DNA of 64,000 nucleotides from Kribbella monticola (GTDB lineage: Bacteria; Actinomycetota; Actinomycetes; Propionibacteriales; Kribbellaceae), in NCBI RefSeq assembly GCF_003261635.1, contig NZ_QFXK01000034.1, forward strand, positions 186,001-250,000. The letters run 5' to 3'. A program made the translations under genes and the position numbers. Shown here one piece after another: positions 3,300-46,078 of the stretch. Positions within the stretch are counted from its first letter, which is position 1, and every line of letters begins with the position of its first letter. The notes under the pieces were generated by a model. It had not been told where the DNA came from. It was given only the letters and a program-made list of their open reading frames with translations, and did no database searches.

Positions 3300-3605
3300 C
3301 GCCCTTCGAACCTTCGTACTGCGCTTCGCTGGAGCGGCGCGCTTTCGTGCTTACCTTCGTACTGCGCTCCGCCGGGGCGGCGCGCCTTCGTACTGCGCTC
3401 CGCCGGGGCGGCGCGCCTTCGTACTGCGCTCCGCCGGGGCGACGCGCTTTCGTGCTTACCTCGTGCTGCGCTTCGCCAGGGCGGCGCGCTTTCCTGCTTA
3501 CCTTCGTACTGCGCTTCGCCGGGGCGGCGCGCTTTCGTGCTTACCTTCGTACTGCGCTTCGCCGAGGCGGCGCGCTTTGGTGCTTACCGTCGTGGTCCGC
3601 TCTGG
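3300..3605. repeat. intergenic tandem repeats, 31-bp and 43-bp units
   Basis: This fills the gap between rpmA and obgE; I see no gene in 3249-3701. Units start with TTCGTACTGCGC and continue with (C/T)TCGCCGGGGCGGCGCG. Successive starts at 3313, 3356, 3387 and 3418 give steps of 43, 31 and 31 bp; the longer form carries an extra TTTCGTGCTTAC-like insert. Degraded copies continue to about 3600. Open frames across the array are artefacts of the repeat. Confidence 0.85.
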
Positions 3606-4420: not shown

Positions 4421-7400
4421 TCAAACCGGGGTGGACGCCAGCTCCGCGGCACCGACCTGCTGGTCTGTCCCATTGTTGCCTGCGTCACCTTCAGTACTGC
4501 TCGCATTGCTCCGGCTACGGCTGCTCCGCCGCCTCCGGGAACTACCGTTCCGCCCCGAGCTGTTCTGCTCGGACTTCTCCTCCGAGCCGCTCTGATCGTC
4601 CGCTGAGGCACTCTGAGCGTCGGCTGAGGCGTTCTGGCCGTCCGCTGCGGCGGTCGGAGCGACCGTCGAAGGCTCGCTGTCGAGCACCGCGCTCTCACCT
4701 TCGGCACCGGACCGCTGGTTGCGACGACGGCGCCCGCTGCCCCGGCCGGCTTCGCGGTGCTCCTCGGATGGCTGGTCCGCAGCCGGGGTGGCCTGATCGC
4801 CCTGCTCAGTTCCGCCTCGGGCAGCGCTGAGGTTGCTGTCGTCGCCGTGCGCCTTCTCGCTGTCCGCGTGGCCGGCGGTGTGCTTCTCACCGTTGGCGTG
4901 GTCGCCGGTGTGCTTCTCGCCTCCTGCGAGGGTGGCGGCGGCGATCTGGGCCAGCTTCTGGGCGGCGTCGCCGTTCGACGGGGTCTCGGCCGGTTCGGCG
5001 TGCTCGGCGACGTTCTCGCCCCGGCCACGACCGCGGCCACGGCCCCGGCTGCGGGAGCTCTTCTTCGCGCCCTCACCGTCACCGCCCTGGTCGCCACCAT
5101 GACCGTTCTGGCCCTGCTGACCGCCTTGGCTCTGACCGCCAGAGTTCTGACCGCCAGAGTTCTGACCGCCCGAGTTCTGACCGCCAGAGTTCTGGCTACC
5201 AGAGTTCTGACCGCCCGAGTTCTGGCGGCTGCGGCCGTCGTCCGCGCGGCGGCGCGATTCCTTCGGCTCGTCGTGCAGGATCAGCCCGCGGCCACCGCAG
5301 TGGTCGCAGTTCTCGCTGAACGCCTCCAGCAGGCCGGTCCCGATCCGCTTCCGCGTCATCTGGACCAACCCGAGCGACGTCACCTCGGCGACCTGGTGCT
5401 TGGTCCGGTCGCGGCCCAGGCACTCGACCAGCCGGCGCAGTACGAGGTCGCGGTTGAGTTCCAGCACCATGTCGATGAAGTCGATCACGATGATGCCGCC
5501 GATGTCGCGCAGCCGCAGCTGGCGGACGATCTCCTCGGCCGCTTCCAGGTTGTTCTTGGTGACCGTCTCCTCGAGGTTGCCCCCGGAGCCGGTGAACTTG
5601 CCGGTGTTGACGTCGACGACGGTCATCGCCTCGGTCCGGTCGATGATCAGCGAACCACCCGACGGTAGCCAGACCTTGCGGTCGAGCGCCTTCTTGATCT
5701 GCTCGTCGATCCGGTAGTTGGAGAACACGTCCCCGTCACCGGCCCACTTCTCGACCCGCTCGGCCAGGTGCGGCGCGACGGACGCGACGTACTCCTTGAC
5801 CTGGTCGAAGGCGTCGTCGCCGGAGATGACCAGCTTGGTGAAGTCCTCGGTGAACAGGTCGCGGACGACCCGGATCAGCAGGTCCGGCTCGCCGTGCAGC
5901 AACTGCGGCGCCTGGCCGGACTTCGACTTCTTGTCGATGTCCTCCCAGTACGCCTGCAGGCGGCTGACGTCGGCGGTCAGCTCCTCCTCGGTGGCGCCCT
6001 CGGCCGCGGTGCGGACGATCACGCCCGCCTCGTCCGGGACGATGTCCTTGAGGATGGTCTTCAGCCGGTTCCGCTCGGTGTCGGGCAGCTTGCGGCTGAT
6101 CCCGCCGTTGCCGCCGCGCGGTACGTACACGACGTACCGGCCGGGCAGGCTGATCTGGTTGGTGAGCCGGGCGCCCTTGTGGCCGATCGGGTCCTTGGTC
6201 ACCTGGACCAGGACGGCCTGGCCGGACTTGAGCACCGACTCGATCTTGCGCGGGCCGTTGCCGGCACCGAGGGTGGCCCAGTCGACCTCACCGGCGTACA
6301 GGACGGCGTTGCGGCCCTTGCCGATGTCGATGAACGCGGCCTCCATGCTCGGCAGCACGTTCTGCACGCGGCCGAGGTACACGTTGCCGATCAGCGAACT
6401 CTGCTCGGCCGTGGTCACGTAGTGCTCGACCAGCACGTTGTCCTCGGACACCGCGATCTGGGTCAGGTCGTCGCGGGCCCGGATCACCATCGTCCGCTCG
6501 ACCGACTCGCGCCGGGCCAGGAACTCGGCCTCGGTGACGATCGGCGCGCGGCGGCGGCCGGCGGCGCGACCCTCACGGCGGCGCTGCTTCTTCGCCTCCA
6601 GCCGGGTCGAGCCCTCGACTGCGGTGATCTCGTTCGAGGTGTTCTTGCTGCGCGGCTCGCGGACCCGAACGACGATCTCGTCCGGGTCGTCCGGTGCGGA
6701 CGCGGCTTCCTCGCCCTTGCGGCGACGGCGACGGCGACGACGGCGCGACGAGCTGCCCGCGCCTTCCGCGTCGTCCTCGGCGTCGTTGTGGTCGTCGGCG
6801 TCGTCCGCGTCGGACTGGTTCTCGGCGTCGTCCTCGGAGTCGTCGTCGTTCTCGTCGGCGCTGTCCTCGGAACCGTCCGCGTCCCCGGCCTTGCGGCGGC
6901 GACGGCCACCGCGGCGACGGCGGCGGCGACGGGTGCCCTCAGCACCGTCCTCGCCGTCAGCGTCATCCGCCTCGGCGTCGGACTCGGTGCCCTCGTGGTC
7001 GGTGACGTCTTCGGGGTCGATCCGGCGGGCCTCTTCGAGGACCGGCTCGGCGCGGTCGGCGGCGACCTCTTCGGCGTCGCGCGTGCGACGGCTGCGGCGA
7101 CGGTTCCTGGTGGTCGGCTGCTCGTCCTCGACCTCGACCGGCTCGGCCGCTACGGCCTCGGTCTCGGTGGTCTGGGTTGCTTCGGCCGCACGCTCGGCGG
7201 CGGTCGAGCGACGCCTGGTACGACGTCCGCTCGGCGCGACGGCGTCGTCGGTGTCCGCGCCGGCCGGGACTGCCTCGACCGGGCTGGTCGCAGCGGCCTG
7301 CGCCGGTACTTCGGTCGGTGCCTGGAAGAGCACGGCGGCAGCGGCAGGCGCCCGGCGGCGGCGACGGGTAGAGGTCTCGGCGGGTGCTGCGAGGGCTGCG

Positions 7401-8101
7401 GCCTCAGCGGCCAGCGCCTCAGCGGCGGCGGCTTCGGCAGCCGCGGCGGCCTCGGCCTCGGCCAACGCCTCCTCGTCGACCTCGGCTTCGACTCCAGAGC
7501 CGTCAGCGCCAGAGCCGGAACCGTCACTGACCGGGCTGGTCTCCGCGTCGGCGACCGGGCCGTCGGTGACGGGGGTGTCCTGGGCCTGCAGGTCGGCCTT
7601 GCGGGCGGCGGCGCTCTTGCGGGTGCTGCGCTTACGCGTGGTCTTCGCCGGCGGGGCGCCCTCAGCAACGACGTCAGCGCCGGCCTCAGCAGCAGTCTCA
7701 GGCGCAGGCTCGGCCGGCGAAGTGGCTGATTCGTCAGTCAGTTCGGGGAAGGCGTCCTGCGACGCGGCGGCCTTCTTGGCCGGGCGCTTGGCAGCAGCTT
7801 TCTTCACGGTCCGCTTGGCGGCCGTCTTCTTCGCGGCCCGCTTCGCCGGGGCGGGCGCCGGATCGGCGGACTCGGCATCGGACTGCGTGCTGATCGCGGT
7901 CTCGACCGGCTCCGCGTTCTGGACGCCGGCCGTGCTGTCGGCAAGCTGCGCACCGGCGTCGGTCGGGGCGGCCTTCGCGCCAGCGGCCTTCTTGGCTGGG
8001 CGCTTGCGGGCCGTCTTCTTGGCAGACGCCTTGGCGGGCTGCTCGGGGGCGGTGGCAGCCGTGTCGGCTGTCTGGGTGTCGTTCGGCTCGTTTTCGAGCA
8101 T
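4421..8101 (-). CDS. rne: ribonuclease E/G family endoribonuclease
   Basis: Endoribonuclease for rRNA/tRNA maturation and mRNA decay. The protein has 1226 aa from ATG 8101 (MLENEPNDTQTADT). The catalytic core lies in the middle: an S1 domain near residues 565-650 (NVYLGRVQNVLPSMEAAFID), DNase-I-like catalytic segments TVVDVNTGKF (about 828) and IVIDFIDM (about 873), and the zinc-link CDHCGGRG near 931. About 530 residues before it and 290 after are low complexity: Ala/Lys histone-like blocks, runs of Arg, acidic Asp/Glu stretches and NSGGQ repeats. This flanking layout, with the core in the centre, is typical of actinobacterial RNase E. Confidence 0.95.
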   Translation of the reverse strand: MLENEPNDTQTADTAATAPEQPAKASAKKTARKRPAKKAAGAKAAPTDAGAQLADSTAGVQNAEPVETAISTQSDAESADPAPAPAKRAAKKTAAKRTVKKAAAKRPAKKAAASQDAFPELTDESATSPAEPAPETAAEAGADVVAEGAPPAKTTRKRSTRKSAAARKADLQAQDTPVTDGPVADAETSPVSDGSGSGADGSGVEAEVDEEALAEAEAAAAAEAAAAEALAAEAAALAAPAETSTRRRRRAPAAAAVLFQAPTEVPAQAAATSPVEAVPAGADTDDAVAPSGRRTRRRSTAAERAAEATQTTETEAVAAEPVEVEDEQPTTRNRRRSRRTRDAEEVAADRAEPVLEEARRIDPEDVTDHEGTESDAEADDADGEDGAEGTRRRRRRRGGRRRRKAGDADGSEDSADENDDDSEDDAENQSDADDADDHNDAEDDAEGAGSSSRRRRRRRRRKGEEAASAPDDPDEIVVRVREPRSKNTSNEITAVEGSTRLEAKKQRRREGRAAGRRRAPIVTEAEFLARRESVERTMVIRARDDLTQIAVSEDNVLVEHYVTTAEQSSLIGNVYLGRVQNVLPSMEAAFIDIGKGRNAVLYAGEVDWATLGAGNGPRKIESVLKSGQAVLVQVTKDPIGHKGARLTNQISLPGRYVVYVPRGGNGGISRKLPDTERNRLKTILKDIVPDEAGVIVRTAAEGATEEELTADVSRLQAYWEDIDKKSKSGQAPQLLHGEPDLLIRVVRDLFTEDFTKLVISGDDAFDQVKEYVASVAPHLAERVEKWAGDGDVFSNYRIDEQIKKALDRKVWLPSGGSLIIDRTEAMTVVDVNTGKFTGSGGNLEETVTKNNLEAAEEIVRQLRLRDIGGIIVIDFIDMVLELNRDLVLRRLVECLGRDRTKHQVAEVTSLGLVQMTRKRIGTGLLEAFSENCDHCGGRGLILHDEPKESRRRADDGRSRQNSGGQNSGSQNSGGQNSGGQNSGGQNSGGQSQGGQQGQNGHGGDQGGDGEGAKKSSRSRGRGRGRGRGENVAEHAEPAETPSNGDAAQKLAQIAAATLAGGEKHTGDHANGEKHTAGHADSEKAHGDDSNLSAARGGTEQGDQATPAADQPSEEHREAGRGSGRRRRNQRSGAEGESAVLDSEPSTVAPTAAADGQNASADAQSASADDQSGSEEKSEQNSSGRNGSSRRRRSSRSRSNASSTEGDAGNNGTDQQVGAAELASTPV

Positions 8102-8248
8102 GTGGTGCGGGTCTCCTCTGGCCCTCCGGCGCATCCTGCGACCCCTGTCACGGGTCCGGCGCAGCCAGAAAGCGGTCTCGGTCTCGCCGCTCCCGGCAGT
8201 CGATGCCCGGTCCGGCGGAAGCCTCCTGGTCCCGCTCCCCCGCGCTCG

Positions 8249-9119: not shown

Positions 9120-10100
9120 ATGCGCGCGCTGCTCTTCGACGAACCCGCTGCCGACACCGCGACCACCCGGGTCGCGGAGGTCCCCACGCCGGAACCGGGG
9201 CCGGGAGAGCTGTCGATCGACGTCCGCGCGGCCGGGGTGAACTTCATCGACGTGATGGCCCGGCGGGGCGATCCCGGGTACGCGACCAGCTGGCCGTTCG
9301 TCCCCGGTCTGGAGGTCGCCGGAACGGTCCGCGCGCTCGGCCCCGACGTCAGCGGCCCGGCCGTCGGTACGCCGGTGGCCGCGTTCACCGGATCAGGTGG
9401 CCTCGCCGAAGTCGCCGTCGTGCGGGCGGAGCGGGTCGTCGCGATACCGGAAGGGCTGTCGTACGAGCAGGCCGCTGTGGCTCCGGGGACGCTCACCACT
9501 GCCGCTCTCCTGCTCGGACCCGCCGGCCGGCTGCGCAAGGGCGACATCGTGCTCGTCCACTCGGCAGCAGGCGGCGTCGGTCAGGCGCTCGCCTCGCTGG
9601 CTCGCCTCAACGGAGCCGGCCTGCTTCTCGGAACCGTAGGCGGCGCGAGCCGGGTGGCCGCCGCCGAAGCGAGCGGGTACGACGCCGCGCTGGTCCGTGG
9701 CGACGGTCTCGCGGATGCTGTCCGCGAGAAGACCGGCGGCCGCCGGGTGGACCTCATCCTCGATCCGCAAGGCACGGAATGGCTCGAGACCGATCTCGAA
9801 CTCGTCGCCGCGGGCGGCCGGATCGTGCTGTTCGGCAACGCGGGCGGTACGGCGCTGACGTTGCCGCCGGCCGGCCGGTTGTTCGGCGGCAACGTCTCGA
9901 TCGGTGGCTTCAGCGTCCGCGGGTACGCCGCGAACGCGCCGCACCTGATCGCCGAGGCCCTGGCGGACGTGCTGGCGAAGGTGAGCGCGGGCGACCTGTC
10001 GATCGAACTCACGGCCGTCGACGGTCTCGACAGGGCCGCTGACGCCCAGCAGGCGCTGGCCGAAGGACGCGGCGAGGGGAAGTACGTCGTACGGATCTGA
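9120..10100 (+). CDS. zinc-type alcohol dehydrogenase / NADPH:quinone oxidoreductase family
   Basis: Medium-chain dehydrogenase/reductase of the quinone oxidoreductase branch, 326 aa. It has a GroES-like N-terminal half (GVNFIDVMARRGDPGY, PFVPGLEVAGTV) and a Rossmann half with VHSAAGGVGQALASLARL. The Cys/His ligands of zinc-dependent alcohol dehydrogenases are absent, which favours an NADPH-dependent quinone or enone reductase. The substrate cannot be told. Divergent from the DUF2344 gene with 43 nt between starts. Confidence 0.88.
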   Translation: MRALLFDEPAADTATTRVAEVPTPEPGPGELSIDVRAAGVNFIDVMARRGDPGYATSWPFVPGLEVAGTVRALGPDVSGPAVGTPVAAFTGSGGLAEVAVVRAERVVAIPEGLSYEQAAVAPGTLTTAALLLGPAGRLRKGDIVLVHSAAGGVGQALASLARLNGAGLLLGTVGGASRVAAAEASGYDAALVRGDGLADAVREKTGGRRVDLILDPQGTEWLETDLELVAAGGRIVLFGNAGGTALTLPPAGRLFGGNVSIGGFSVRGYAANAPHLIAEALADVLAKVSAGDLSIELTAVDGLDRAADAQQALAEGRGEGKYVVRI

Positions 10101-10213
10101 CCGGAGACGCGTGTCCCCGCACAAGTTCCGCGAGCGATCGCCGCGCTGGCCACGCGCCTACCGGGCGTCGTACGGCATCATGAGGGCTCGGGGAACGTGA
10201 GGAGAGGACATCG

Positions 10214-20693: not shown

Positions 20694-21659
20694 ATGAGCA
20701 ACGGTGTCCCCGGCCTGGATCAAGTCGTCGAGCTGGCCGAGGTGGTGCGGAACGGGTTCGTCGAGAGCCGGCACTTCGGGCTGGCGGTGGCGCTGGATCC
20801 GGACGGGACGCAGGTGTACGCCGCGGGACAGGTCGACGCGGTGGTGTTGCCTCGGTCAACAGCCAAGCCGCTGCAGGCGGTCGGGAGCATCGCGGCCGGG
20901 GCCGAGCTGGAGGACGAGGAGGCGGCGATCGCGGCCGGCAGCCATACGGGTGAGGATCTGCACGTCGCGCTGGTGGACCGGATGCTGGCGTCGGTCGGGC
21001 TGGGTCGCGATGCGCTGGGCTGCCCGCCGGACCGACCGGAGGACGAGCCGACCCGATTCCGTTTGATTGCCGAGGGCATCGAACCGGAAAGGGTCCGGAT
21101 GAACTGTTCGGGCAAACACGCTGCGATGCTGATGGCGACCGTTGCTATGGGCAATGATGTTTCGTCCTACCTGGATGCCGATTCTCCCGTGCAGCGGGTG
21201 ATCGCGGGTGAGATCGAACGCCTCACCGGCGCGTCAACGGGCATCGTCACCGTCGACGGTTGCGGCGCTCCCCTGCTCGGCATGCCACTCGACGGCCTGG
21301 CCCGAGCCTTCGGCCGCCTGGCGACAGCACCAGCCGGTACGCCGGACAACCGCGTGGCGACCGCGATGCGGCAGCACCCGTACCTCGTCGGCGGGCAAGG
21401 CCATCTGAACAGCGAGGTGATGCGCCTGCTCCCCGGCGTCATCGCGAAGGGTGGCGCCGAGGGTGTGATCGGTATGGCCGCGCCAGATGGGCACGCGGTC
21501 GCGGTGAAGGTGATCGACGGGAACCCGCGCGCCACCACCGCACTCGGCCTGACCCTCCTCGCCAAGTGCGGAGTCGACATCTCGGCAGCCGACTCCCTAC
21601 TGAGAGTGCCAGTCCTCGGCGGCGGCCGCCCAGTAGGCCAACTCGAACTAACGATCTAG
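20694..21659 (+). CDS. asparaginase (L-asparaginase II family)
   Basis: 321 aa of the PF06089 asparaginase family, probably hydrolysing asparagine to aspartate and ammonia in the cytoplasm. Family blocks include RNGFVESRHFG, PRSTAKPLQA, SHTGEDLH, NCSGKHAAML and DGCGAPLLGMPL. No signal peptide. ATG 20694 lies 7 nt after a TAGCCT box, consistent with a leaderless message; a longer open frame to 20508 would overlap the divergent gene and is rejected. Confidence 0.9.
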   Translation: MSNGVPGLDQVVELAEVVRNGFVESRHFGLAVALDPDGTQVYAAGQVDAVVLPRSTAKPLQAVGSIAAGAELEDEEAAIAAGSHTGEDLHVALVDRMLASVGLGRDALGCPPDRPEDEPTRFRLIAEGIEPERVRMNCSGKHAAMLMATVAMGNDVSSYLDADSPVQRVIAGEIERLTGASTGIVTVDGCGAPLLGMPLDGLARAFGRLATAPAGTPDNRVATAMRQHPYLVGGQGHLNSEVMRLLPGVIAKGGAEGVIGMAAPDGHAVAVKVIDGNPRATTALGLTLLAKCGVDISAADSLLRVPVLGGGRPVGQLELTI

Positions 21660-21675
21660 CTCAGCCTCGGCTTCA

Positions 21676-22074
21676 AGCGGCGGGCTTCGGCCGCGCGCCT
21701 CGGCTTCGGCCACGGGGCTCGGCGTCGGCTCCAGCGGCGGGCTTCGGCCGCGCGACTCGGCTTCGCCCACGGGGCTCGGCTTCGGCTCCAGCGGCAGGCT
21801 TCGGCTGCGCGACTCGGCTTCGCCCACGGGGCTCGGCTTCGGCTCCAGCGGCAGGCTTCGGCTGCGCGAATCGGCTTCGCCCGCAGGACTCGGCTTCGGC
21901 TCCAGCGGCAGGCTTCGGCTGCGCGAATCGGCTTCGACCGCAGGACTCGGCTTCGGCTCCAGCGGCAGGCTTCGGCCGCGCGAATCGGCTTCGACCGCAG
22001 GACTCGGCTTCGGCTCCAGCGGCAGGCTTCGGCCGCGCGACTCGGCTGCGGGGTTCGGCTGCGGCTTCGGCCTT
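21676..22074. repeat. 57-bp tandem repeat, about 7 copies
   Basis: Fills the 432-bp gap between two convergent genes; no gene seen in 21660-22091. The anchor AGCGGC recurs at 21676, 21733, 21790, 21847, 21904, 21961 and 22018, exactly 57 bp apart. Units contain GGCTTCGGCTCCAGCGGCAG and CGCGCGA(A/C)TCGGCTTCG and differ by a few bases. 57 is a multiple of 3, so open frames run through it (19-aa unit), but no start, ribosome-binding site or domain supports translation. Confidence 0.95.
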
Positions 22075-22091
22075 GGGGTTCGCCGGGTGAG

Positions 22092-22502
22092 CTAGCGGTA
22101 GAGGGCGAGGGCGCCGGTCAGCGAGTCGATCGTGGCGCGTGGGCCGTAGAGGGCGAGGCCTAGGTATTCGATGTCCTCCGCCTTCGTTCCGCTGATGGTG
22201 GCCGACATCTGGTCGTACGTGCGGGATTTCTGCGCGACCTGGTTCATGTCGTGAACCGTCACGCTGTCGCGGGCCGCCGCCTGGATCCGGAGCTCATGGA
22301 GTCGCTCGGCGGCTGCTCGCAGTACGGGGATCGGGTGGGCGCACATGCCGGTGTGGACGGCGCCGGAGCCGTCGACGGTATCCGCTCCGACAACCTCATC
22401 GTGATGGTGGCCGAGTGCGACGCCGAGCAGCGCGGCGGTGTTGAGTGCGACGCCGATCGGCGCCTCGTCGGCGATCACGACGACCATTTTGTTCGCCAGC
22501 AT
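22092..22502 (-). CDS. DUF2000 family protein
   Basis: 136 aa, MLANKMVVVIADEAPIGVALNTAALLGVALG, with GADTVDGSGAVH and DMNQVAQKSRTYD. The family has a PTH2-like fold and no settled function. A strong ribosome-binding site (AAGGAGAG) precedes ATG 22502. Divergent from an Lrp/AsnC regulator with a 105-bp shared control region, so it is the likely target of that regulator. Confidence 0.85.
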   Translation of the reverse strand: MLANKMVVVIADEAPIGVALNTAALLGVALGHHHDEVVGADTVDGSGAVHTGMCAHPIPVLRAAAERLHELRIQAAARDSVTVHDMNQVAQKSRTYDQMSATISGTKAEDIEYLGLALYGPRATIDSLTGALALYR

Positions 22503-22556
22503 TTCTCTCCTTGAGTGCACGGTTTGACGTGGTGAAGAGTAGGCAAATGCGCGGCT

Positions 22557-22583
22557 GAAATTCTTGGGCGCCGAACGAAATTC
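22557..22583. promoter_or_regulatory. candidate Lrp/AsnC operator (direct repeats GAAATTC)
   Basis: GAAATTC occurs at 22557-22563 and 22577-22583, exactly 20 bp apart (two helical turns), in the control region between the divergent DUF2000 and Lrp genes and 24 bp ahead of the Lrp start. AT-rich half-sites at this spacing would suit an Lrp-type octamer. Inference from position and periodicity only. Confidence 0.5.
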
Positions 22584-22607
22584 GGCCGCTGTGCCAAACT
22601 GGCGGAT

Positions 22608-23066
22608 ATGGACGAACTTGATACGGCGCTGCTGCGGCTCCTGCAGAACGACGCGCGCCGCACCAACCGCGAGATGGCGGCCGAGCTCGGCATCGCGCCG
22701 TCGACCTGCCTGGAACGGATCCGAGGGCTGCGCGACCGGGGCGTGATCAGCGGGTATCACGCCGAGGTCGACCTGCAGGCGATCGACCGGTCGACCCAGG
22801 CGATCATTTCGATCAAGCTCCGCCCGCAGGCGATGGCAGTCGCCACGACCTTCCAGGACTACGTGCAGAGCCTGCCGCAGACACTCGCGATGTTCATGGT
22901 CTCGGGCGCCTCCGACTTCCTCGCGCACGTCGCCGTCAAGGACACGGCCGCCCTCCGCGATTTCGTCCTCGACCTGGCGAAGCGCCAAGAGATCGGCGAC
23001 ATCCGCAGCTCAGTCGTCTTCGAACACCACCGCCGCACCACGGTCATGCCCCTCCCCGACCGCTGA
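22608..23066 (+). CDS. Lrp/AsnC family transcriptional regulator
   Basis: 152 aa with an N-terminal winged helix (MDELDTALLRLLQNDARRTNREMAAELGIAPST cut here by length; recognition part STCLERIRGLRDRGVISGY) and a C-terminal RAM/ACT-like ligand domain (VSGASDFLAHVAVKDTAALR). Members form octamers responding to amino acids. Divergent from the DUF2000 gene, its likely target; the ligand is unknown. Confidence 0.92.
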   Translation: MDELDTALLRLLQNDARRTNREMAAELGIAPSTCLERIRGLRDRGVISGYHAEVDLQAIDRSTQAIISIKLRPQAMAVATTFQDYVQSLPQTLAMFMVSGASDFLAHVAVKDTAALRDFVLDLAKRQEIGDIRSSVVFEHHRRTTVMPLPDR

Positions 23067-23084
23067 CAGCTCCTCCAACCTCGC

Positions 23085-23838
23085 CACCACCCGCACGCCG
23101 ACAGCTTCCGCCGGGTCGCCCACGGCGCCGACAACTTCTCCGGATTCGCCGGCCCCGTACGCCGAGCGCTTCTCCGAGTTCGCCACAACCCGCACGCCGA
23201 GCGCTTCCCCCAACTCGCCACTACCCGTACGCCGACAGCTTCCTCCGGTTCGCCCCACAGCGCGACAACTTTCTCCGGATTCGCCGGCCCCATACGCCGA
23301 GCGCTTCTCCGAGTTCGCCACAACCCGCACGCCGAGCGCTTCCCCCAATTCGCCACTACCCGTGCGCCGAGCGCTTCTCCGAGCTCGCACTGCCCCCAGC
23401 ACCAAGAGCTTCGCCAGACTCGCCACGACCCCAGCGCCGACAGCTCCGCGACCACCCAGCGCAGAGAGCTTCACCGGGTTCCACAACCCGCACACCGAGC
23501 GCTTCTCGAGCTCGCACTGCCCCTAGCGCCGACAGCTTCGCCAGACTCGCCACCACCCCAGCGCCGACAGCTTCGCGACTACCCAGCGCCCAGAGCTTCA
23601 CCGTGCTCGCACTGCCGCCAGCGCCGAGAGCTTCGCCAGGATCGCCACGACCCCAGCGCTGACAGCTTCGTGACTACCCAGCGCCCAGAGCTTCACCGGG
23701 TTCGCCACAACCCGCACACCGAGCGCTTCTCCGAACTCGCCACAACCCGCACGCCGACCGCTTCTCCGAGCTCGCACTACCCCCAGCACCAACAGCTTCG
23801 CCAGACTCGCCACGACCCCAGCGCCGACAGCTTTGCGA
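23085..23838. repeat. degenerate array derived from the 3' end of the ECF41 sigma gene
   Basis: About 23 imperfect copies of a roughly 33-nt unit (GCCGA(C/G)(A/C)GCTTC.. then TTCGCCAC(A/G)ACCCGCAC) fill the whole 772-bp gap between the Lrp gene and the sigma gene; no gene seen. Read on the minus strand, copies encode versions of the sigma C-terminus: 23676-23720 gives GVRVVANPVKLWALG against GVRVVANPDKLSALG at 23842-23886, 13 of 15 residues and about 70% of bases. Others read GVRVVANSEKRSAYG and AGVVASLAKLSALG. The array abuts the sigma stop codon. Confidence 0.85.
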
Positions 23839-24708
23839 CTAGCCGAGCGCTGACAGCTTGTCTGGGTTTGCCACGACTCGTACGCCGGTCACCTGGCCGG
23901 CCTCGATCTGCAGGGTCAGGAGGTGGCGCGTGCGGTCGAGTTGCAGGTAGATGGCCGGGCCGGTGATCAGGTCGACCGGCTTTTGGATGAACCGGGTGCG
24001 CCGGGAGTACACGTGGGTGAAGTAGTGCGCCACCTTTTCGCTGCCGTGGATCGGCTTGCGAGCCGTCGGTGCCTTGCCGCCACCGTCGCTCCAGGCGGTG
24101 ACGTCGTCGCGCAGCATCGCTTGCAGTCTGGGCAAATCACCTTCGCGGGCAGCAGCAACGAAGTCTTCGAGCAATCGCTGCTGCTCGGCTCTGGTCGGCT
24201 CAAAGCGCGACCGGCCCTTCTCCAGGGCAGCCGCAGCCCGTTTGTGGAGCTGCCTGCAGTCCTCTGCGGTTCTGCCCAGGATGCCGGCGATCTCGTCGTA
24301 CGGGAGGACGAAGGCCGTTCGTAGTACGTAGACAGCGCGCTGCGGCGGGGTGAGCTGTTCCATCAGGTGAAGCATCGCCATGGAGAGGTCTGACTCGACT
24401 GCACTGTGTGGATCCGACAGCGCCGGCTCGGGGAGCCAGTCACCGGCGTAGCTCTCGCGGCGAGCCTGTCGAGCGCGCAGTGAGTCGACAGCGAGCCGCG
24501 TCACCACCCTGGTGAGGTAGCGACGCGGCTCGGCCACGCTGTCGTGGTCGACGCCGGACCAACGGACATATGCCTCCTGCAGCACGTCCTCCGCGTCGTG
24601 CCAGCTCCCCAGCATCCGGTACGCCAGTCCCGCCAGGAACTGCCGGTGCTGAACGAACTCGTCGACGCTCAGGCCGGTACCCGGCACGCGACCATCATCC
24701 TGTTCCAC
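23839..24708 (-). CDS. ECF41-type RNA polymerase sigma factor
   Basis: 289 aa. Sigma region 2 is FLAGLAYRMLGSWHDAEDVLQEAYVRW (shown here as FLAGLAYRMLGSWHDAEDVL), the linker holds WLPEP, and region 4 is LTPPQRAVYVLR to EIAGILGRTAEDCRQLHKRA. A SnoaL-like C-terminal domain ends in NPDKL. WLPEP plus NPDKL mark ECF41, in which the C-terminal domain replaces an anti-sigma factor. GTG 24708 overlaps the AhpD-like gene by 40 nt; GTG 24687 is an alternative. The partner gene upstream has an ECF41-type promoter, predicting autoregulation. Confidence 0.93.
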   Translation of the reverse strand: MEQDDGRVPGTGLSVDEFVQHRQFLAGLAYRMLGSWHDAEDVLQEAYVRWSGVDHDSVAEPRRYLTRVVTRLAVDSLRARQARRESYAGDWLPEPALSDPHSAVESDLSMAMLHLMEQLTPPQRAVYVLRTAFVLPYDEIAGILGRTAEDCRQLHKRAAAALEKGRSRFEPTRAEQQRLLEDFVAAAREGDLPRLQAMLRDDVTAWSDGGGKAPTARKPIHGSEKVAHYFTHVYSRRTRFIQKPVDLITGPAIYLQLDRTRHLLTLQIEAGQVTGVRVVANPDKLSALG

Positions 24709-25100
24709 ACGTTGATGGTCGCAATCGCGAGGAGCAAGTCGGCCGTCCCCTCCTCGCCCCAGTGCTTCACCGCGTCGTCCCAGACATCATCCGGTACGCC
24801 GTGCTCGCCCAGGGTGGTCACCGCATCGGTCAGCGCGAGTGCGGCCCGCTCCCGCTCGTCGTAGAACGTCGACTCGTACCAGGCAGCGAGGCCTGTGAGC
24901 CGGCGCGCGGTCTCACCCCGCTTGAGCGCCTGCTCGGTGTGCATGTCGATGCAGTAGGCGCAGCCGTTCGTCATGGACGCCCGGATCTTCACCAATTTCA
25001 GTACGGTCGGATCGACCTTCGCCGACGTGTACTTCTCCAGCCCCAGCACGGCCTGATACCCATCCGGCACCAACTCGGCCCACGAAATCCTCTTAGTCAT
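24669..25100 (-). CDS. carboxymuconolactone decarboxylase/AhpD-like protein
   Basis: 143 aa from ATG 25100 (MTKRISWAELVPDGY). The redox motif CAYCIDMH (C-x2-C with His) lies in SMTNGCAYCIDMHTEQALKR, the AhpD-type alkylhydroperoxidase signature. ECF41 sigma genes are typically next to such a gene, an oxidoreductase or an epimerase, and here the sigma gene overlaps its end. Probable role in redox detoxification under sigma control; the substrate is unknown. Confidence 0.9.
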   Translation of the reverse strand: MTKRISWAELVPDGYQAVLGLEKYTSAKVDPTVLKLVKIRASMTNGCAYCIDMHTEQALKRGETARRLTGLAAWYESTFYDERERAALALTDAVTTLGEHGVPDDVWDDAVKHWGEEGTADLLLAIATINVWNRMMVACRVPA

Positions 25101-25136: not shown

Positions 25137-25246
25137 CCCGGAGATGTGACCCCGCTCACGTTCGGCATGCCCATCGGCACCATTCTGCGGGGCTGCTCGC
25201 CACTGGTACGCCCGTCGGCGCCGCCGATCCGTCCCCGCTGCCACCG

Positions 25247-25445
25247 CTTCCGCGAGTCCGCGCTGTCGCCGTTCCCGCGAGTCCGCGCTGCCGCCGTTCC
25301 CGCGAGTCCGCGCTTCCACCGTTCCCGCGAGCCCGCGCTGCCGCGTTTCCGCGCTGCCGCCGCTAACGCGAGGCCGCGCTTCCGCGAGCCCGCGTTTCCG
25401 CGAGTCCGCGCTGCCACCGCTTCCGCGGTCCGGGCTGCCGGTGCT
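25247..25445. repeat. 25-bp tandem repeat array
   Basis: Lies between the ECF41 promoter and the lipoprotein gene; no gene seen in 25137-25477. Units TTCCCGCGAGTCCGCGCTGC + CGCCG start at 25272, 25297 and 25322, 25 bp apart; outer copies are degraded, with CGCGAG and CCGCGCT cores persisting to about 25445. Open frames here are Arg/Ala-rich and not credible. Confidence 0.85.
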
Positions 25446-45814: not shown

Positions 45815-46078
45815 ACGAAGCCGCACCCCGGGGTCACCCGCTGCAACAGGTGGCAGAGCACCACGCAGTACAGGCTGCATCTTCCCTCGTACTACGTGCC
45901 GCCGCGCACCTCCGCTGCAACGTGCGGCAGGGCAACGCAGTACGAGCGCAATCTTCCTCGTACTGCGTGACGTCGCCCCCTCCGCTGCGACCTGCAGCAG
46001 GGCAACGCATTACGTGCGTCACCGTCCTCGTACTGCGTGGCGTCGCGCACCGTTCGCTGCGACGTGCGGCAGGACGTA
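45815..46078. repeat. about 70-bp tandem repeat array with internal inverted repeats
   Basis: Fills most of the clpP1/tig gap; no gene seen in 45768-46090. CTCGTACT recurs at 45886, 45957 and 46027 (71 and 70 bp). Units hold TCCGCTGCRACSTGCRGCAG and arms CTCGTACTGCGT and ACGCAGTACGAG, which are inverted copies, so each unit can fold. Confidence 0.85.

Follow-up and report, generated by a model that had tools for sequence, protein, structure and literature searches.

The intergenic DNA between an ECF41/SigJ-type sigma factor gene and a convergent Lrp/AsnC-family regulator gene of Kribbella monticola raises the question of how a long array of tandem repeats came to lie between two gene ends, from what it was made, and whether it does anything for its neighbors. 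The locus lies in a window of 64,000 nucleotides (contig NZ_QFXK01000034.1, positions 186,001–250,000), whose genome is designated G000, and comprises the following features, given in window coordinates.

22608–23066, plus strand: Lrp/AsnC-family regulator gene, convergent to the sigma gene, 152 aa, stop codon 23064–23066
23047–23105, no strand assigned: distal-most copy of the repeat with the presumed ancestral junction, including the Lrp stop codon (23064–23066)
23067–23838, no strand assigned: tandem array of ~23 degraded 35-nt units, running from stop codon to stop codon (772 bp)
23295–23457, no strand assigned: higher-order repeat, first copy, 163 bp, 89% identical to 23682–23844
23676–23720, minus strand: best coding-like internal copy, translated as GVRVVANPVKLWALG
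23682–23844, no strand assigned: second copy of the 163-bp higher-order repeat
23839–23886, minus strand: proximal copy of the amplified segment, which is the present 3′ end of the sigma gene
23839–24708, minus strand: ECF41/SigJ-type sigma factor gene, 289 aa, C-terminal end GVRVVANPDKLSALG, stop codon 23839–23841
24669–25100, minus strand: carboxymuconolactone decarboxylase (CMD)/AhpD-like gene upstream of the sigma gene, given for context

The DNA between the Lrp and sigma stop codons is nearly all tandem repeat. Wraparound alignment resolved 23.3 copies of a 35-nt unit, the sigma-sense consensus of which is GCTCTCGGCGTGCGGGTAGTGGCGAACTCGGAGAA, with 85% of the aligned bases equal to the consensus, and TRF gave a period of 35 and 21.4 copies. 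The array of ~23 degraded copies described in an earlier note on this DNA is thus real, and its extent is 23067–23838. With 21–23 head-to-tail copies of 35 bp at a single locus it is a minisatellite, defined as head-to-tail copies of 10–100 bp at one locus. The coding remnants reported in the same note were also recovered, where the minus-strand translation of 23676–23720 agrees with the sigma tail in 13 of 15 residues and GVRVVAN is kept by two further copies. The presence of the 163-bp block twice, at 89% identity, indicates that the units had already diverged when segments were re-duplicated.

The sigma factor carries sigma-70 regions 2 and 4 (PF04542, 49.8 bits, and PF08281, 36.4 bits, both over the cut-off) and a weak match to a SnoaL_2-type extension (PF12680, 20.9 bits, E 5.6e-4, below the cut-off of 27). 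It scored 273.5 against NF007214 (SigJ), over the cut-off of 271, and 282.7 against TIGR02957, below the cut-off of 323.25. An adjacent CMD-type gene, such as that found here, is presumably typical of ECF41. The translation contains an NPDKLSALG tail and a YAGDWLPEP linker and is assigned to ECF41/SigJ by these motifs, which correspond to the NPDKL tail and YVGPWLPEP-type linker given for ECF41 in PMC7730460.

To trace the source of the array, it was scored against the 3′ tails of 543 genes from two genomes or of 1932 genes. Under mild scoring (+1/−1) the sigma tail of G008, a close relative whose sigma factor is 96% identical, ranked first among the 543 tails with a score of 29, followed by the window's own sigma tail (20) and the next tail at 18, where the maxima over 300 shuffled arrays were 17 for the G008 tail and 15 for the own tail. 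Among the 1932 tails the G008 tail was again first (29; next 21), with the own tail in fourth place (20). Intermediate scoring (+1/−1.5) of the 543 tails also placed the G008 tail first (25), and here unrelated tails at 16 outranked the own tail at 14.5; in the tail test with the same scoring the own tail reached 15 against a shuffle maximum of 13. Under either of these scorings 9 of the 10 genus sigma tails tested beat their shuffles, the exception being that of G001. Strict scoring (+2/−3) gave the own tail 29, a value tied by one unrelated gene tail, where 500 shuffled arrays reached at most 27 and shuffled tails up to 28. The link between repeats and sigma tail, which the earlier note had proposed, lies above shuffled sequence under mild and intermediate scoring and barely above it (29 versus 27) under strict scoring.

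A blastn search of 38 genus genomes with the array, in which 14 candidates were scored per genome, gave as the best match outside the array itself the 3′ end of the G008 sigma gene (51.8 bits, E 1.6e-6), followed by a match elsewhere in G035 (49.1 bits), with the own sigma tail at 44.6 bits. The lead of G008 over G035 is small and the location of the match consequently tells more than its margin. The array consensus is likewise closer to the G008 sigma tail (33) than to the own tail (23). The present-day own tail is thus only a moderate match to the array at the DNA level, yet the link is above chance. The same array elsewhere in the genome would speak against descent from this gene; among the best 40 of 112 candidates in G000 only the array itself and the own sigma tail were found. 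Taken together, the first rank of the G008 tail among 1932 tails and its place as the best blastn match in the 38 genomes point to the sigma 3′ end as the source, as had been claimed.

That claim was, however, incomplete. The distal-most copy reads ...VRVVARLEELSAVGEGHDRGAAVVFEDD in the sigma sense and is collinear with the C-terminus ...VRVVANPEKLSAFEGHDGGSAVVFEDY of the sigma factor of G020, a relative without an array; the same copy holds the Lrp stop codon. The amplified segment would consequently have been the common end of both genes, including that of the convergent Lrp gene, which the earlier note had missed. The outer two copies now serve one gene each, the first ending the sigma gene and the last ending Lrp.

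The state of the junction in relatives was taken from the 18 of 38 genus genomes with a sigma ortholog at E ≤ 1e-90, of which 17 are other than G000. In G008 there is no array and the sigma and Lrp genes overlap tail-to-tail by 15 bp. None of the 17 other orthologs has a TRF array of score ≥ 80 at this junction, so that with one genome per species the copy number is ~23 in G000 versus no array in the 17 others. The sigma stop lies −72 to +10 bp from the stop of the facing gene in 13 of these 17 genomes, and in the remaining 4 a gap of 181–800 bp without an array is found. Lrp is the facing partner in 7 of the 17, with stop-to-stop distances of −54 to +10 bp (four overlaps of 8–54 bp and three gaps of 1–10 bp). 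The divergent DUF2000-Lrp pair (window 22092–23066) is inverted relative to sigma in 10 of the 18 genomes, in which DUF2000 then faces the sigma gene.

The array is probably a non-coding minisatellite that was born within the tail-to-tail junction by slippage or unequal exchange and grew neutrally; neutral expansion, offered in the earlier note as an alternative, is the outcome that we favor. The sigma and convergent Lrp genes would at first have had their last bases in common, or nearly so, as is seen in relatives. Two imperfect direct repeats at the sigma 3′ end, with a spacing of 35 bp, would then have allowed slippage or unequal exchange to duplicate the common segment, a step suggested by the matching period; recurrent events would have raised the number to ~23 copies, with the segmental re-duplications seen in the 163-bp blocks coming later. 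The middle copies are visibly decayed, presumably under neutrality. The net outcome would be two formerly touching genes that now lie 772 bp apart, with both proteins spared because the outermost copies still provide each gene's own stop.

The imperfect repeat is found at the G008 junction, where 15 of 20 bases match at an offset of 35; this is the best match among offsets 15–49, and 0 of 2000 shuffles reached 15 at offset 35. The corresponding match in the window is 13 of 20, extending past the sigma stop into the array, and in the 16 other relatives it is 2 to 11 of 20. The period of the array is thus equal to the spacing of the imperfect repeat in G008, which fits a birth by slippage. The G008 match may equally be the remnant of a contracted array.

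The strongest competing explanation keeps the same mechanism but places the origin of the array before the split of G000 and G008, with a later loss in G008 by recombination between the outer copies that restored the overlap. The divergence among seven ungapped units (mean 17%) is not below the divergence of G000 and G008 at fourfold sites (16.6%, 691 ortholog pairs), and consequently the array may predate the split and the empty site of G008 may be a contraction. The poorer match of the own sigma tail to the array, compared with that of G008, means that either the own tail has changed since the array arose or G008 once carried an array. The greater closeness of the G008 tail to the array consensus (33 versus 23), its self-match of 15 of 20 at offset 35, and three A- or C-ending codon sites common to the own tail and G020 and absent from G008 (compared by eye) all fit a loss. 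However, the 16 other orthologs also lack the array, so that one gain is required in any case, and array units may simply diverge faster than genes. We give an ancestral array a substantial chance, a little short of even, and regard gain in G000 as somewhat more probable than loss in G008 from the sequences compared.

Whether such expansion is confined to this junction was addressed by comparing 1.1 Mb of G000 with 1.2 Mb of G008, using simple gene calls made here, which yielded 133 convergent, 465 codirectional, and 144 divergent orthologous pairs. A pair was termed tight when its gap was ≤ 10 bp in at least one genome and opened when it was ≥ 20 bp longer in the other, thresholds chosen after the list of convergent pairs had been viewed. 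Tight pairs made up 76 of the 133 convergent pairs, and 12 of the 76 were opened by ≥ 20 bp in the other genome. For 9 of these 12 pairs the internal repetition of the longer gap exceeded that of every one of 100 shuffles, narrowly so for 2 of the 9, and all 9 are longer in G000 than in G008; no repeat was found in the other 3. Among 165 tight codirectional pairs 23 were apparently opened and 1 of these was repeated. Start-codon calls account for most of the 23 openings; a real change in length was anchored in 3, and for 2 more no anchor was found. Per tight pair, repeat-opened junctions are thus 9 of 76 convergent versus 1 of 165 codirectional (p 1.6e-4), and p is 0.004 when the two narrow cases and the sigma pair are left out. 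The share of repeats among real openings, 9 of 12 versus 1 of 5, does not differ significantly (p 0.10), the codirectional control being weak. A comparison of 9 of 12 with 1 of 23 (p 2.8e-5) was withdrawn, as most of the 23 reflect start-codon calls. Tight convergent pairs therefore open more often than tight codirectional ones, and array formation is not special to ECF41, since similar repeats open other tight convergent pairs in G000. Codirectional gaps were longer in G000 in 83 cases versus 50 longer in G008 (p 0.005), a count blurred by start-codon calls.

The individual cases vary in size and polarity. The pair G000:C81:166980/167022 has a 15-bp unit in ~4 copies and a gap of 41 bp versus −4 in G008; no polarity is given here, as only G000 and G008 match well beyond the junction. 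Similar cases, with gaps likewise longer in G000 than in G008, are the pairs 127629/127709 (79 versus 8 bp), 165530/165556 (25 versus 4 bp), and 305086/305131 (44 versus −4 bp). The tight state of the last pair is seen in G027 and G020, and G006 and G033 show it at lower identity. For 128213/128292 the junction in G027, the sole genome spanning the pair, is no longer than in G008. Pair 32024/32312 is mixed, being tight in G024, G004, and G032 and opened in G031 (~40 bp), in G027 (65 bp), and further in others. One G008 pair is opened by a 56-bp duplication, where the genes of G027 overlap by 20 bp (G020 was dropped because the left gene looks broken). Direct repeats spanning both stops with a score ≥ 16 occur in 5 of 212 convergent gaps, the sigma pair included, versus 0.43 expected; one of the five, g8C 30188/31318, has no tight sister, the sister gap being 459 bp.

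The excess at convergent junctions could reflect tolerance, with both gene ends copied and no operon broken, or a mutational effect of head-on transcription. It is conceivable, although we are doubtful, that tail-to-tail junctions are a hotspot for tandem duplication, perhaps through slippage provoked by head-on transcription or supercoiling, with the duplications retained because the copying includes both gene ends. Loss of NucS mismatch repair was considered as a cause of the more numerous arrays in G000 and rejected, the NucS family being present in 38 of 38 genomes.

The same comparison bears on the possibility that the array is a selected spacer, insulating each of the convergent genes from the transcription or antisense RNA of the other. 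The array does part two genes whose ends touch or overlap in relatives, and its location alone favors an insulator; the opening of 12 of 76 tight convergent versus 5 of 165 codirectional pairs points the same way, with the caveat that codirectional pairs have reasons of their own for closeness. However, the array contains no terminator-like site and no inverted repeats of ≥ 15 nt, the folding of its RNA is on neither strand stronger than that of 20 shuffles (z 0.49 and −0.21), no Rfam family exceeded its gathering score, and 13 of the 17 relatives keep their stops within −72 to +10 bp, making a selected spacer unlikely. The only Rfam match, to a microRNA whose gathering score is 84, reached 21.7 bits; it falls in the sigma gene and is noise. 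A structured RNA element or terminator array was likewise rejected, as inverted repeats, a terminator, and RNA structure beyond chance were not found.

Derivation from a flanking gene tail was also assessed for arrays in general. Arrays of ≥ 120 bp were found in 61 gaps, 46 of which are flanked by a gene 3′ end, and in 6 of the 46 the tail of the flanking gene itself ranks first of 1932, three of these in ties (two with an ortholog of the gene and one with an unrelated gene). These six arrays repeat the last codons and stop, as judged by eye, and for two of them the corresponding site in the sister genome is empty. Such derivation is therefore not general among arrays, and TRF arrays straddle stops not significantly more often than starts (15 versus 8 of 2217 genes, p 0.21).

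Several other length differences were observed within the window. The convergent asparaginase and DUF2000 genes are 432 bp apart, versus 91 bp in G008, and most of this gap is taken up by a second array at 21659–22092 (6.8 copies of a 57-bp unit, 95% matches), whose units match the tail of neither gene. The intergenic arrays at 3310–3593 (gap 453 versus 187 bp in G008), 25231–25439 (377 versus 183 bp), and 45838–46073 (443 versus 292 bp) were not traced to gene tails. A 201-bp (67-codon) difference from G008 lies near short repeats inside a 1237-aa open reading frame at 4421–8134, and ~1 kb at 9127–10123, with an open frame (9120–10100), is missing at the syntenic place in G008.

The earlier note had suggested that the array could supply alternative tails to the sigma factor. 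In favor of a reservoir of C-termini, recombined to tune NPDKL-dependent control, several copies do still encode VRVVAN or NP.KL-like words. However, a period of 35 rotates the reading frame between copies. In-register exchanges of the sigma tail were worked through on paper for all full units but one irregular one (22 of 23), and 4 of the 22 products ended within 5 residues of the normal length, 2 of these exactly at it. Similar stop-overlapping arrays also follow other gene ends, the products of which were annotated in part. The suggestion thus fares poorly, and a tail reservoir is very improbable. An assembly artefact with a wrong copy number is equally hard to credit: G000 is a draft assembly of 90 contigs, and the exact copy number may still be off, but an assembler would not produce copies ~15% from their consensus, and the fit of the outermost copies to the ancestral junction also speaks against an artefact. 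Least probable of all is the insertion of a dispersed mobile repeat family of the REP or MIRU type, which the intergenic, stop-adjacent position resembles, as no other copy was found in G000 (best 40 of 112 candidates), a scoring of 14 candidates per genome in the 37 other genus genomes yields only single short matches of 42.8–51.8 bits, with the G008 sigma tail as the highest, no unrelated locus was found to hold a related copy, and plasmid and phage collections hold no match to the array.

How touching genes separate, and where bacterial intergenic DNA originates, is hard to observe directly. The convergent pairs described here form a series of ~2, 4, and 6 copies (counted by eye) and ~23 copies, with a close relative showing the tight state, and suggest that tandem duplication of a common end can part convergent genes while sparing both. 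The hotspot reading, if true, would mean that convergent genes which touch or overlap separate by a general and directional route that also makes new intergenic DNA in bacteria. The present case gives a straightforward means of testing whether duplication is promoted by convergent transcription.

Minisatellites, slippage, and overlapping genes have each been described before. MIRU elements, a dispersed family in an actinobacterium, are tandem repeats of tens of bp that adjoin stop codons. The window array is likewise tandem, with a unit of tens of bp beside stop codons, but unlike MIRU its unit was found at its own locus only. In comparison with ECF41 (PMC3426412 and PMC7730460), the window sigma factor shares the NPDKL tail, the WLPEP linker, a weak SnoaL_2-like match, and the CMD-type neighbor, whereas the array belongs to this junction and not to the family, being absent from 17 of 18 genus orthologs. 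Overlap statistics of convergent (tail-to-tail) prokaryotic genes are given in PMC2174442, and the Lrp-partnered orthologs, with 4 of 7 overlapping by 8–54 bp and 3 of 7 lying 1–10 bp apart, are in keeping with such overlaps; neither "tandem" nor "duplication" occurs in the main text of that source, and a search of the open-access literature found no description of tandem duplication as a route separating convergent genes. The closest parallel is the Haber and Louis 1998 model, as outlined in PMC6947457, in which minisatellites are born by slippage or unequal exchange between short flanking repeats. The present array resembles it in that its period equals the distance between the imperfect direct repeats of the unexpanded junction, in later growth by duplication, and in its degraded copies. 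It departs from that model in that the amplified segment would be the common end of two convergent genes, each outer copy keeping one of them intact, and in that other convergent pairs of G000 show smaller cases.
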